Assembly: GCA_025361735.1 (NCBI GenBank)
Contig: JANYKD010000417.1
Location: 1 to 33,062 of the forward strand
Length of the DNA stretch: 33,062 nt
Source of the DNA: Phycisphaerales bacterium
GTDB lineage: Bacteria > Planctomycetota > Phycisphaerae > Tepidisphaerales > Tepidisphaeraceae
Reading direction: 5' to 3'
Part shown: one piece after another, positions 4,044 to 29,731 of the stretch
Numbering within the stretch: the first letter of the stretch is position 1
How the letters are laid out: each line of letters opens with the position of its first letter
The notes under the pieces: generated by a model
Databases searched by the model: none
The model's input: only the letters and a program-made list of their open reading frames with translations
What the model was told of the DNA's origin: nothing
Position numbers and translations under genes: made by a program

Positions 4044-4065
4044 GGGTTCGTTCGCAACCAAAGAA

Positions 4066-4210
4066 GATTAAACACGAAGGCACGAAGCCACGAAGCGGTT
4101 TTCGGAGTGGGATGACGAGTTGGCAGATCATTCATCCAAAGACCAATACTTGGTTCGTCGCTTTCGTCTACCAAACACCGCTTCGTGTCTTCGCACCTTC
4201 GTGTTTAATC
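4066..4210. repeat. Imperfect 38-bp inverted repeat (CACGAAG-type)
   Basis: The left arm (4066-4103) starts GATTAAACACGAAGG and continues with repeated CACGAAG units. The right arm (4173-4210) is its reverse complement with a few mismatches. About 70 bases lie between the arms. It fills the gap between the phosphoesterase and the DUF4954 gene, which converge, so a transcript from either side could fold into a long hairpin. No target duplication was seen at its edges. This accounts for the whole 207-base gap. Confidence 0.75.
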
Positions 4211-4250
4211 CGATTTGATGGTAGCCGAGCCGCGTTTGGATCATGGTGTT

Positions 4251-7103: not shown

Positions 7104-7201
7104 TCGAGGCTCCTTTGGGGCCCGCAGGGGGCTTCTGCAAAACGCTAATTCTAACGGGGCTGGTGGGGGACACAAGGCGGGGGGACGCTAATTTGCGATT
7201 C

Positions 7202-7334
7202 CGGCGCGGCAATTTTTTCGGGAGCAGATGGAGTAGCACAGGCGTCTCGCCTGTGTCAAAGTGCTCGGACACAGCCGAGACGGCTGTGCTACTTTCGTCG
7301 GCCCTGGCGTTCTCCCGGAAAAATTGCCGCGCCG
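7202..7334. mobile_element. MITE-like element, copy 1 (133 bp, perfect 8-bp target duplication)
   Basis: Terminal inverted repeats of 23 bp (7202-7224 and 7312-7334) match at 22 of 23 positions; the outer end reads CGGCGCGGCAA and the inner end CGGGAG. The element is flanked by a perfect 8-bp direct repeat TGCGATTC (7194-7201 and 7335-7342), the mark of transposition. The core holds two hairpins in opposite orientation within a 25-bp inner inverted repeat and has no coding capacity. It lies between the divergent genes at 7103 and 7390. A transposase in trans is inferred; 8-bp duplications are known from several IS families, including IS66, ISL3, IS256, IS6 and IS1595. Confidence 0.9.
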
Positions 7335-7389
7335 TGCGATTCGTCTGCCTGGCAACGCAATGCCCTCCCGGCGATTATGGACTTCCAGC

Positions 7390-10892: not shown

Positions 10893-10907
10893 GCGGGCAT
10901 TGTACCT

Positions 10908-11015
10908 CGGCGCGGCGATTTTTCCGGGAGCGCGGGCGTCCCCGCCCGCATCAACATGGGCGGCCAAGGACGGCCGCACTCCCAGAAACCGTCTCCCGGA
11001 AAGCTTGCCGCGCCG
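10908..11015. mobile_element. MITE-like element, copy 2 (108 bp, different core)
   Basis: Terminal inverted repeats at 10908-10930 and 10993-11015 match those of copy 1 apart from a few bases. The flanking 8-bp repeats are TTGTACCT (10900-10907) and TTGTACTT (11016-11023), 7 of 8 identical. The core differs from copies 1 and 3. It holds GCGGGCG-TCCC-CGCCCGC and a second hairpin GCGGCC-N6-GGCCGC. It lies between the divergent genes at 10892 and 11126. Confidence 0.88.
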
Positions 11016-11125
11016 TTGTACTTGCTATGCCCATTTCCTCACTTGTGCTGCGGGTTGCTCCTTGCCACAATTCATGCGCGTCGCGATTTGCCTGCGGGCG
11101 TAGCTCGCGCTGCGGAACAAACCCT

Positions 11126-21642: not shown

Positions 21643-24240
21643 ATGCTCCAATGCAGGCGATACGATCTCAATAAGCGTGCGATGCCTCCATCCGCTGGTG
21701 GCACGGGCTTCCAGCCCGTGGTGTCGGTATCCCGACACATCCGGAGCGGTGCACCGCGAAACACGGGCTGGAAGCCAGTGCCACCAATACTGGTTCAAGT
21801 CCTCGCATTTGTTTCGCTGGTGTTGTCCCTACAGTTCGCTCAAGCCGCCCAGCCGGCCGCTCCCACAACGCGCCCGCTCCTCCAGCGTGCCCTCGCCGGT
21901 CCGCTTCACGGCACCGACGACATCGTCTTCTGCTCCCGCTCGGCCTACGACGACCCCCACTGGTACGCCAACATCGGCTACTACTGCGACGACGCCAACC
22001 ACAAGGCCTACGCCGGCAACGGCAAGCCCGACGCGGGCAAACTCTACAAACTCAACCTTCGCACGGGCCAGACCTCCATCCTGCTCGATCCCCAGGGCGG
22101 CTCCGTCCGCGATCCGCAGGTCCACTATGACGGCAAGAAGATCATCTTCGCCTACCGCCCCGCCAACACCGACTACTACCACCTTCATGAGATCAACTCC
22201 GACGGCACCGGCCTGCGCCAGCTCACCAGCGGCGACTTCGACGACATCGAACCCACCTATCTCCCCGATGGCGATATCGTCTTCATCTCCACACGTTGCA
22301 AAAGGTGGGTCAACTGCTGGATGACCCAGGTCGCCGTCATGTATCGCTGCGACCCAACCGGTGGCCACATCACGCAGATCTCCGCCAACACCGAACACGA
22401 CAACACCCCCTGGGTCATGCCCGATGGCCGCCTGCTTTACACCCGCTGGGAATACGTCGACCGCAGCCAGGTTGAATACCACCACCTCTGGACCATGAAC
22501 CCCGACGGCACCGGCCAGCAGGTCTTCTACGGCAACATGCGCTCCTGGACCGTCATGATCGACGCCAAGCCCATCCCCGGCACTCAGAAGGTGCTGGCGA
22601 ACTTCTCGCCCGGCCACGGCGTCAACGAACACGCTGGCATCGCCACCCTCATCACCGGCGACAACGGACCCGACGATGCTTCCGCCCCTAAACCACTACA
22701 CAAAGGTGCAAGAATCCGCGACCCGTATCCACTCTCCGAGAATCTCTTCCTGATGGCCCGTGGCAACCAGCTCGTCCTCATGGACGACCAGAACCACGAG
22801 GAAATCCTCTACACCGATCCAACCAAGATCGCCCTCAACGAGCCGCGTCCCATTCAGTCTCGCCCGCGCGAGCCCGTCATCCCCAGCCGGCTCGATCCCA
22901 AGGAACCCACCGGCCGGATGGTGCTGGCCGATGTCTACATGGGCCGGAATATGCCCGGGGTCGAGCGCGGCCAGATCAAGAAACTGCTCATCCTCGAATC
23001 GCTCCCCAAACCCGTGAACTTCAGCGGCGGCCCGGACCTGCTCACCTGGCTCGGTACCTTCACGCTCGAACGCGTCCTGGGCACTGTCCCCGTCGAACCG
23101 GACGGCTCGGCGTATTTCGAAGTCCCCGCACGCCGCCAGGTCTTCTTCGTCGCCCTCGACGAGCATGACATGTCCGTCAAGCGCATGCAGAGTTTCACGA
23201 CCGTCATGCCGGGCGAAGTTCTCAGTTGCGTCGGCTGCCACGAGGAGCGCAACCTCGCCCCGGGCCACACCTCGGCCGGCACGCTCATGGCCATGCGCCG
23301 GCCGGCCAGCCGCATCGAACCCTTCGCCGGCTATCCCGACGTCATGGATTTCCAGCGTGACATTCAGCCAATCCTCGATCGCTATTGCGTCCAGTGCCAC
23401 AACCCGCAGAAGCGCGAAGGCCACATGCTGCTGACCGGCGACCGCGGGGCAGTGTACTCGCACGCCTACGTCTCGCTGCTGGCCCATCGGCTCGTCGCCG
23501 ACGGCCGCAACGGCCTGGGCAACCAGCCCCCGCGCAGCATCGGCAGCTCGGCCAGCCCGCTGCTCACGCAACTCCGCAAACACAAGGCCACCGATCAGGA
23601 TTTGCGCACGGTCTGGTTGTGGATCGAATCCGGTGCGCCGTACGCCGGAAGCTACGCCGGCCTACGCAACAAAGTGCAGCAGGAAGCCGGCGGCCAGGCC
23701 AACTGGATCGTCTTCGGCCCGCACAACCAGCTTCTGCAAAAGCGCTGCGCCAGTTGCCACGAAGTCACCCCCAACGTGAAAAAGAACGAGCGCCCGATCC
23801 CCTTCAACGACGAACTGCGCCACAAGCAGCCGCAACTCGCCGGCCATCCCACGGGCTCGTACGAACGCATCATTATCCCCAACGACCCCATCGGCCGGTA
23901 TGCCGACGACATCATCCAGAACTTCACCCGCCCCGAACTCTCCGCCCTGCTTCTGGCCCCCCTCGCCAAATCGGCCGGCGGCTGGGGAAGTTGCGGCGAT
24001 GTCTTCAAGGACCGCAACGATCCCGACTACAAGACCATTCTCGCCGCCCTGCAGCACGGCAAGGAAATTCTCGACCGCGAGCCGCGCTTCGGCGCTCCCG
24101 GCTTCCAGCCCAACCCTCAGTACATCCGCGAAATGAAGAAATACGCCGTTCTCCCCCCTGATTTTGACGCCGCCAAGGAACGCCTCAACGTCTTCGACCT
24201 CGACCAGAAATACTGGCGCTCGACGTGGTACACGCCGTAG
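21643..24240 (+). CDS. HzsA-related beta-propeller multihaem cytochrome c-like protein
   Basis: An 865-residue ORF. After an N-terminal hydrophobic export segment (about residues 50-69), a WD40/TolB-like propeller occupies about 90-440, with repeats such as VHYDGKKIIFAYRP. A segment related to the hydrazine synthase alpha subunit follows. Three haem c motifs are visible: CVGCH at 529, CVQCH at 582 and CASCH at 702. Such proteins are frequent in planctomycetes that do not perform anammox, so hydrazine synthesis is not implied; periplasmic electron transfer is the safe reading. The start is doubtful. ATG 21643 has GGTGATCC upstream, but residues 19-48 are translated from a palindromic repeat. 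A GTG at 21778 would begin directly before the signal peptide. Confidence 0.8.
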   Translation: MLQCRRYDLNKRAMPPSAGGTGFQPVVSVSRHIRSGAPRNTGWKPVPPILVQVLAFVSLVLSLQFAQAAQPAAPTTRPLLQRALAGPLHGTDDIVFCSRSAYDDPHWYANIGYYCDDANHKAYAGNGKPDAGKLYKLNLRTGQTSILLDPQGGSVRDPQVHYDGKKIIFAYRPANTDYYHLHEINSDGTGLRQLTSGDFDDIEPTYLPDGDIVFISTRCKRWVNCWMTQVAVMYRCDPTGGHITQISANTEHDNTPWVMPDGRLLYTRWEYVDRSQVEYHHLWTMNPDGTGQQVFYGNMRSWTVMIDAKPIPGTQKVLANFSPGHGVNEHAGIATLITGDNGPDDASAPKPLHKGARIRDPYPLSENLFLMARGNQLVLMDDQNHEEILYTDPTKIALNEPRPIQSRPREPVIPSRLDPKEPTGRMVLADVYMGRNMPGVERGQIKKLLILESLPKPVNFSGGPDLLTWLGTFTLERVLGTVPVEPDGSAYFEVPARRQVFFVALDEHDMSVKRMQSFTTVMPGEVLSCVGCHEERNLAPGHTSAGTLMAMRRPASRIEPFAGYPDVMDFQRDIQPILDRYCVQCHNPQKREGHMLLTGDRGAVYSHAYVSLLAHRLVADGRNGLGNQPPRSIGSSASPLLTQLRKHKATDQDLRTVWLWIESGAPYAGSYAGLRNKVQQEAGGQANWIVFGPHNQLLQKRCASCHEVTPNVKKNERPIPFNDELRHKQPQLAGHPTGSYERIIIPNDPIGRYADDIIQNFTRPELSALLLAPLAKSAGGWGSCGDVFKDRNDPDYKTILAALQHGKEILDREPRFGAPGFQPNPQYIREMKKYAVLPPDFDAAKERLNVFDLDQKYWRSTWYTP
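21697..21785. repeat. Hairpin-pair repeat overlapping the start of the HzsA-like gene
   Basis: A 24-bp inverted repeat with one mismatch (21697-21720 and 21762-21785) encloses TGTCGG-TATC-CCGACA and the perfect palindrome GCGGTGCACCGC. Each arm contains a hairpin ACGGGC-TTCCA-GCCCGT or near match. The order (stem hairpin, GTGTC/GACAC hairpin, inverted stem hairpin) is that of the core of the MITE at 7202. No flanking duplication was found. Confidence 0.8.
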
Positions 24241-26351: not shown

Positions 26352-26696
26352 TTGGATTGACGCTCCGACTGCCCTTCGGCTGTCAGGCGTCTTCGGGGTG
26401 GGACAAGGTCTCCTGCCCTGGCTCTTTCTCAATCGGATGGCCCCCTCCCAGCGCTGGGGATGCGGCACTTCCGCCACGGTGGCAACCAACAACTGGCAAG
26501 TTGGGACCTGACAGGACTGATCGGGACGGCTTTTGGACGTGGAAAGGACGCGGTTCTTCTTCCTTCAGTCCGTGCCCACACTGACGCAACATCCATGCGC
26601 TACATTACTTACGCCTCAGCCCCACTCCTCGGACACCCTAACAAACAACTTTGTCCACTCCTCTCTGGCATCTCTGGACCGATGTCCCGTCGCAGG
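26352..26696 (+). other. Non-coding stretch downstream of a consensus promoter; possible small RNA
   Basis: Open frames here are short, lack ribosome sites and resemble nothing known. The strand has several local hairpins, among them TCCCAGCGCTGGGGA and CCAAC-N9-GTTGG. An 8-base complement CTGTCAGG near 26380 and CCTGACAG near 26509 could close a longer fold. GGGACGGCTTTT near 26530 might mark a 3' end. It does not match tmRNA, RNase P RNA or SRP RNA signatures that I can recognise. An RNA gene is a guess, not a call. Confidence 0.3.
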
Positions 26697-26828
26697 CGGC
26701 GCCGTGATTTTTTCGGGAGAACGCCAAGGCCAGCGAGCGCAGCACAGCCGTCTCGGCTGTATCCGAACACTTTGACACAGGCCAGACGCCTGCGCTACTC
26801 TATGTGCTCCCGAAAAATTACCGCGCCG
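26697..26828. mobile_element. MITE-like element, copy 3 (132 bp, inverted orientation)
   Basis: Terminal inverted repeats at 26697-26719 and 26807-26828 match the family, with one base missing on the right. The flanking 8-bp repeats are GTCGCAGG (26689-26696) and GTTGCAGG (26829-26836), 7 of 8 identical. The core read on the minus strand matches the core of copy 1 closely (for example TGTGTCAAAGTG and CAGCCGAGACGGCTGTGCT), so this copy is inserted in reverse. It lies between the divergent chain-length remnant and sulfite reductase gene. Confidence 0.9.
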
Positions 26829-26888
26829 GTTGCAGGGGGCGAAAACGGGAAGGTTTCGGGGGCGCAAAACGAACCCAACTCCAACTCC

Positions 26889-29367: not shown

Positions 29368-29731
29368 AAACACAGAGAGCACAGAGGACACAGAGAAGAG
29401 AGGAGCACGGACGAGACGCCCGTGCCACAAGGTCTCTGGTTCGTCTCAAACACCACTCATTCGCCACGGATGTCACGGATTACACGGATAAGACAAGGCA
29501 TTGATCGTCTTGGGCGTGCTCAGGTTTTCGGGACCAGCATGTGGCCACCAGAAGCTCGTGGCATGGGCGTCTCGCCCATGGTGTCGGTACTCCGACACAT
29601 CTTCGTTGTCTGCAACCATGCTCTCATCCGTGTCATCCGTGAAATCCGTGGCTATTCCTCTTCCCGTTTGAATCGCAATCCGGTCTCGTGCCTTCAACTC
29701 GTCTCTGTGTCCTCCGTGCTCTCGGTGTTCA
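29368..29731. repeat. Composite of inverted repeats filling a gene gap
   Basis: The 404-base gap between the reductase and the next gene holds no gene. The outer arms are CACAGAG-type (29368-29397 and about 29701-29731). The inner arms are 31-bp CACGGAT-type (29463-29493 and 29622-29652, about 28 of 31 matching). Inside the inner pair lies a GTCTC-loop hairpin followed by GTGTCGG/CCGACAC (29558-29600). A single GTCTC-loop hairpin in reverse orientation lies at 29405-29428. Such CACAGAG and CACGGAT repeats are known to me from several bacterial phyla. Confidence 0.85.

Follow-up and report, generated by a model that had tools for sequence, protein, structure and literature searches.

Insertion sequences (ISs) of the p-MULT group, which includes ISKra4 and ISMich2, carry inverted repeats of 18-39 bp and are bounded by direct repeats of 8 or 9 bp, and in the ISMich2 group two ORFs are linked by a -1 frameshift (PMC3942029). 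REPINs, and GTAG-tagged REP sequences with RAYTs, have also been described (PMC3116915, PMC3733652). Here, we analyzed a 33,062-bp stretch of DNA (hereafter, the window) from a Phycisphaerales bacterium of the phylum Planctomycetota (contig JANYKD010000417.1, assembly GCA_025361735.1). It contains three copies of a MITE family in which REPINs are enclosed by ends resembling those of ISKra4-type ISs.

Copy 1, a type a MITE, occupies positions 7202-7334. Its left terminal inverted repeat (TIR; 7202-7224, plus strand, CGGCGCGGCAATTTTTTCGGGAG) and right TIR (7312-7334, minus strand) are complementary at 22 of 23 positions, and the 8-bp target duplication TGCGATTC lies on the left at 7194-7201 and on the right at 7335-7342, identical at 8/8 positions. 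The type-a REPIN inside it (7233-7292) consists of a GTAG-tagged hairpin, GTAGCACAGGCGTCTCGCCTGTG, a loop and the inverted hairpin CACAGCCGAGACGGCTGTGCTAC. Copy 2, a type b MITE of 108 bp (10908-11015, plus strand) with ends as in copy 1, encloses a GGAG-tagged REPIN (10926-10985), and its left and right target duplications, TTGTACCT (10900-10907) and TTGTACTT (11016-11023), agree at 7/8 positions. Copy 3, a type a MITE of 132 bp (26697-26828, minus strand), lies in the opposite orientation to copy 1 and has more decayed ends; its duplications, GTCGCAGG on the left (26689-26696) and GTTGCAGG on the right (26829-26836), agree at 7/8 positions if the right end is set one base shorter. The interiors of copies 1 and 3 are unrelated to that of copy 2, whereas the ends are identical in kind. 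The preliminary description of this DNA, which reported the 22/23 ends and perfect duplication of copy 1 and two further copies with 7-of-8 flanks, was accurate on all of these points.

Other repeats are also present in the window. REP-like inverted hairpins of other kinds (GTGGCACGGGCTTCCAGCCCGTG; GTGGCACGGGCGTCTCGTCCGTG) lie in larger nested inverted repeats at 21696-21786 and 29369-29729, and contig C262 has a RAYT-type gene whose flanking hairpins are related to them. A 47-bp inverted repeat with a 65-bp spacer (AAACACGAAGGCACGAAGCCACGAAGC) is located between converging long ORFs at 4059-4217, and a short tandem array of the seven-base unit CAACTAT, with drifting copies, occupies the contig edge (2-85).

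The host genome (G000) is a 7.53-Mb draft of 571 contigs, with 83.9% completeness and 6.25% contamination. The 23-bp end gave 61 matches in this genome at ≤3 mismatches, compared with none for the reversed control, and searching at the nucleotide level with the complete element recovered approximately 30 full or partial copies; several contigs terminate within MITE copies. In total, 28 paired copies, each 107-139 bp long, were resolved. Across these 28 pairs, flank identity peaked at exactly 8 bp (mean 0.69, compared with 0.14-0.35 at other lengths from 3 to 13), and duplication lengths other than 8 gave no signal. Flanks matched at ≥7/8 positions in 11 of the 28 copies (mean 0.43 and maximum 4 when the pairing was shuffled 5,000 times) and at ≥6/8 positions in 17 (shuffled mean 0.97, maximum 6). 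Five copies, on C8, C240, C368, C539 and C557, have perfect 8-bp duplications at unrelated sites, and some others (e.g., C117 and C442) have no recognizable duplication, which was either lost or never present. Most full copies are 86-95% identical to copy 1, and the lost or imperfect duplications, which fit this range, suggest that many copies are old.

With inverted ends, a fixed 8-bp duplication, multiple copies and a length too short for a transposase gene, these elements have the properties of MITEs. The preliminary description had argued from the window alone that a non-autonomous element had really transposed, and had named copies without 8-bp duplications, or ends alike merely through hairpin composition, as findings that would speak against it. 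Transposition is instead confirmed genome-wide by the excess of ends over the control, the 28 pairs and the signal at 8 bp only, with far more copies at ≥7/8 than shuffling yields. The lack of control matches and the duplication statistics together rule out chance or hairpin composition as the source of the ends.

When 61 genomes were searched with the end sequence alone, two inverted copies bounding 1,566 bp were found in a relative, G055, on the Planctomycetota MAG contig JAKAEB010000007.1. They delimit a complete IS (C66:62248-63813) with perfect 23-bp TIRs (GGGCGTGGCAATTTTTTCGGGCG) and a perfect flanking 8-bp duplication (TTTTTGAA); 20 of the 23 end positions equal those of the MITEs and three differ. 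The best NCBIfam match of its transposase was ISKra4 (NF033572, E = 1.3e-42), at a score of 146 bits that lies below the curated equivalog cut-off of 205, and the protein also matched Pfam UPF0236. Its DDE triad is D151, D268 and E361, of which the latter two are kept in all 11 aligned transposases and D151 in 10.

Further ISKra4-type ISs with similar ends were found in the host's own family, namely L136 (1,389 bp) and L142 (1,546 bp), with the perfect 8-bp duplications TGCGAGGG and GAAAATGC, respectively, and an ISKra4-type IS in another family of the class, L145, has a 9-bp duplication. The end layout GGGYGYGSC...TTTTTCNGG is common to independent ISKra4-type ISs of the same family and class, and the 23-bp ends and 8-bp duplications of the MITEs fall within the p-MULT ranges given above. 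Most of the relatives' ISs have two ORFs that meet at a run of T and C, mostly T5C5 (TTTTTCCCCC), where the frameshift is -1 in L142 and +1 (or -2) in the G055 IS. An intact ISKra4 transposase was not found in the 84% complete draft of G000. The ISKra4-related gene on C105 was rejected as the partner in this genome because it is only a broken fragment without matching ends. The preliminary description had suggested looking for a complete IS that combines these ends with a transposase; one is present in G055 and none was found in the host. The ends, which that description had assigned to no named family, are of the ISKra4 type, as in G055, L136 and L142. Judging from these sequence comparisons, the family is a genuine non-autonomous one, probably of the ISKra4 type (prokaryotic Mutator-like, DDE).

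Of 397 genomes sampled from the class, 30 contain the ends when the search pattern is relaxed slightly. One other family (f5) accounts for 25 of these 30 genomes, and forward and reverse matches together number up to 46 per genome. End pairs in these genomes lie 109-198 bp apart, many with duplications matching at 7-8 of 8 positions. Named relatives belong to uncultured Planctomycetota, one of which is labelled Phycisphaerales. Almost the same solo end, CGGCGCGGCAATTTTTTCGGGAGNGGGGATTCCGG, is present in two MAGs, one of Planctomycetota and one of Candidatus Hydrogenedentes (L059, L215); it may be the end of an IS that was not assembled, with the exact terminus seen in the window.

The common ends of the host's copies enclose three subfamilies, each formed around a different REPIN (GTAGCAC, GGAGCGC or GTAGTACC). 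Type a, with the hairpin of copy 1 and its inverted partner inside, accounts for 21 of the 28 pairs, and type b, with GGGAGCGCGGGCGTCCNCGCCCGC and its inverted partner, for five, plus at least two more, on C550 and C526; type c, with GTAGTACCGCCTTCAGGCGGT and its inverted partner, has copies on C557 and C260. The type a, b and c hairpins gave 165, 60 and 74 matches in G000, compared with 5, 2 and 0 in the control, respectively. All three also occur there without MITE ends, many as inverted pairs, and the 60-bp type-a REPIN of copy 1 recurs without TIRs at C225:3988-4047. Nine Y1/RAYT-type genes were identified in G000, of which four to five are flanked by similar GTAG/GTGG hairpins of the same build (for example GTAGGACAGACATTCCTGTCTGTC, GTAGGGCCGGCGTGTCGCCGGCC and GTGGCACGGGCGTCCCGCCCGTG, of which GTGGCACGGGCGTCCCGCCCGTG differs from type a by 3-4 mismatches); no exact type a, b or c hairpin was found in the flanks of these genes. 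Because the hairpins form standalone inverted pairs and RAYT genes have flanking hairpins of like build, we regard the interiors as REPINs in the published sense (PMC3116915, PMC3733652). The reading of a MITE family in the preliminary description was borne out, but these interiors, REPINs of several kinds, had been overlooked.

Outside the host genome, GTAG-like hairpins form an inverted pair inside a MITE of G035 (L211). Among 15 representative interiors from other genomes, only four have a hairpin that beats shuffled sequence at p<0.05. A strong small hairpin is therefore not supported as a rule for all such MITEs, and REPIN cargo is not general across the superfamily. Two arrangements in G000 were recorded separately. 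At C408:34876-35449 (L003/L069), the gene for a Y1/RAYT-type transposase has a type-a MITE upstream, at a distance of about 100 bp. At C169:11404-11709 (positions 1290-1595 of L029), a type-a MITE is broken in its first REP hairpin by an element of about 160 bp, which has CACCCTTATAC ends and encloses a GTGG-tagged hairpin pair; this nested element proved local, its ends being found outside this site chiefly on C169 itself.

Genes were called with a simple method based on codon usage; all 28 copies fell outside the called genes, and 20 have genes called on both sides. The neighboring genes of these 20 are divergent in eight cases, tandem in 12 and convergent in none, about two convergent sites being expected from intergenic length. 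Each of the 20 is upstream of at least one gene, a pattern that is suggestive only. The preference for sites between divergent genes that had been hinted at from the window is unsupported genome-wide, and within the window itself only copies 1 and 2 are clearly in a divergent setting, since a weak plus-strand ORF was called to the left of copy 3.

We consider it highly probable (roughly 0.87) that these MITEs were moved by an ISKra4-family transposase in trans, and that REPINs were captured at least three times before the resulting package was copied. In this model, the DDE transposase would recognize the inverted ends of about 23 bp and move the MITE, whose insertion would produce the 8-bp target duplication. 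A different REPIN (type a, b or c) would have been captured between the ends in each of at least three separate events, after which the ISKra4 machinery would copy the whole package, with the REPINs as amplified passengers. That an ISKra4-type transposase did the moving in G000 is what we infer from the sequence of the ends and the duplication length, and the likelier order appears to be that REPINs came into MITEs, and not that MITE ends were built around REPINs. The tag GGGAG closes the MITE end on its inner side and also opens the type-b REPIN, and this short shared homology may have helped capture. At C164:4042-4107, a type-b interior with its outer spacer AGGAGCCG is found without ends, stopping where the MITE ends would start; this sequence could be a donor or a remnant.

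Several IS families give 8-bp duplications (e.g., IS256, IS66, ISL3 or IS1595 types), and a matching intact IS was not found in G000. Another such DDE family might have moved the MITEs, the likeness to ISKra4 ends being convergence. This is very unlikely, given that 20 of 23 positions equal those of an ISKra4-type IS found by the end sequence alone, and that the shared end layout recurs in independent ISKra4-type ISs of the same family and class. Elsewhere, REPIN hairpin pairs are attributed to RAYT tyrosine transposases, and the elements could be viewed as long REPIN/BIME structures moved by RAYT through a single-strand mechanism, the outer 23-bp repeats being an extra REP-like arm. Every copy does enclose tagged hairpin pairs, the whole element self-folds, and RAYT genes exist in G000. 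However, IS200/IS605-type transposition is not known to make 8-bp target duplications, and their presence at many sites largely refutes this explanation. The same ends, moreover, terminate complete DDE ISs and are found, identical, around unrelated interiors, and we consider a RAYT origin even less probable than convergence.

The least probable of the alternatives is that the repeats persist because they function as RNA or as transcription-control hairpins, with selection on structure, not transposition, conserving the ends. The strong folds (z = -4.9 to -12.6), the intergenic position of all 28 copies and the upstream position of all 20 scorable copies would suit such a role, but target duplications are present and an Rfam search of the window gave no match. 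Covariation across the 21 copies of type a is confined to the two ends, with nine double compensatory changes (shuffled mean 2.2, maximum 7), whereas the inner stems have none (shuffled mean 1.5). This difference fits pressure on, or homogenization of, transposon ends and not RNA selection; structured-RNA selection was rejected on the absence of an Rfam match and of compensatory changes in the inner stems. Under the preferred reading of ISKra4-driven movement, the MITE ends may tentatively represent a second, RAYT-independent route of REPIN spread, in which different REPINs are repeatedly enclosed by the same DDE ends and then copied, so that two unrelated transposition systems share one non-coding passenger, though we think the odds are against this extension.

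These results provide a class-wide MITE superfamily of Planctomycetota with an identifiable partner transposase family. In one genome, REPINs have been enclosed in DDE-transposon ends on at least three occasions, with an apparent further case in the relative G035. The enclosed REPINs suggest spread without a RAYT of their own, which bears on how REP sequences are dispersed. The family is ordinary in kind, as a MITE family, and new as a family; what is unusual is that one kind of end encloses three different REPINs. The open-access literature that was searched yielded no description of REPINs within ISKra4-type MITE ends.

Like other bacterial MITEs (e.g., ERIC, NEMIS, RUP and Nezha), the elements are short, non-coding, multicopy and intergenic, with inverted ends and a target duplication, but they differ in having ISKra4-type ends and a REPIN interior that varies by subfamily. 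ISKra4-family ISs (p-MULT 4 Mutator-like; ISMich2/ISKra4/ISAzba1 groups; PMC3942029), of which complete relatives occur in the same class and family as the host, share the 23-bp end layout and the 8-bp duplication, whereas the MITEs have no transposase gene and are far shorter (107-139 bp, compared with about 1.4-1.6 kb); their outermost base is usually C, compared with G in the G055 IS. With the REPINs and GTAG-tagged REPs described together with RAYTs (PMC3116915, PMC3733652), they share an inverted pair of tagged hairpins that also stands alone in the genome, but these REPINs of G000 sit between DDE-transposon ends bounded by 8-bp target duplications.
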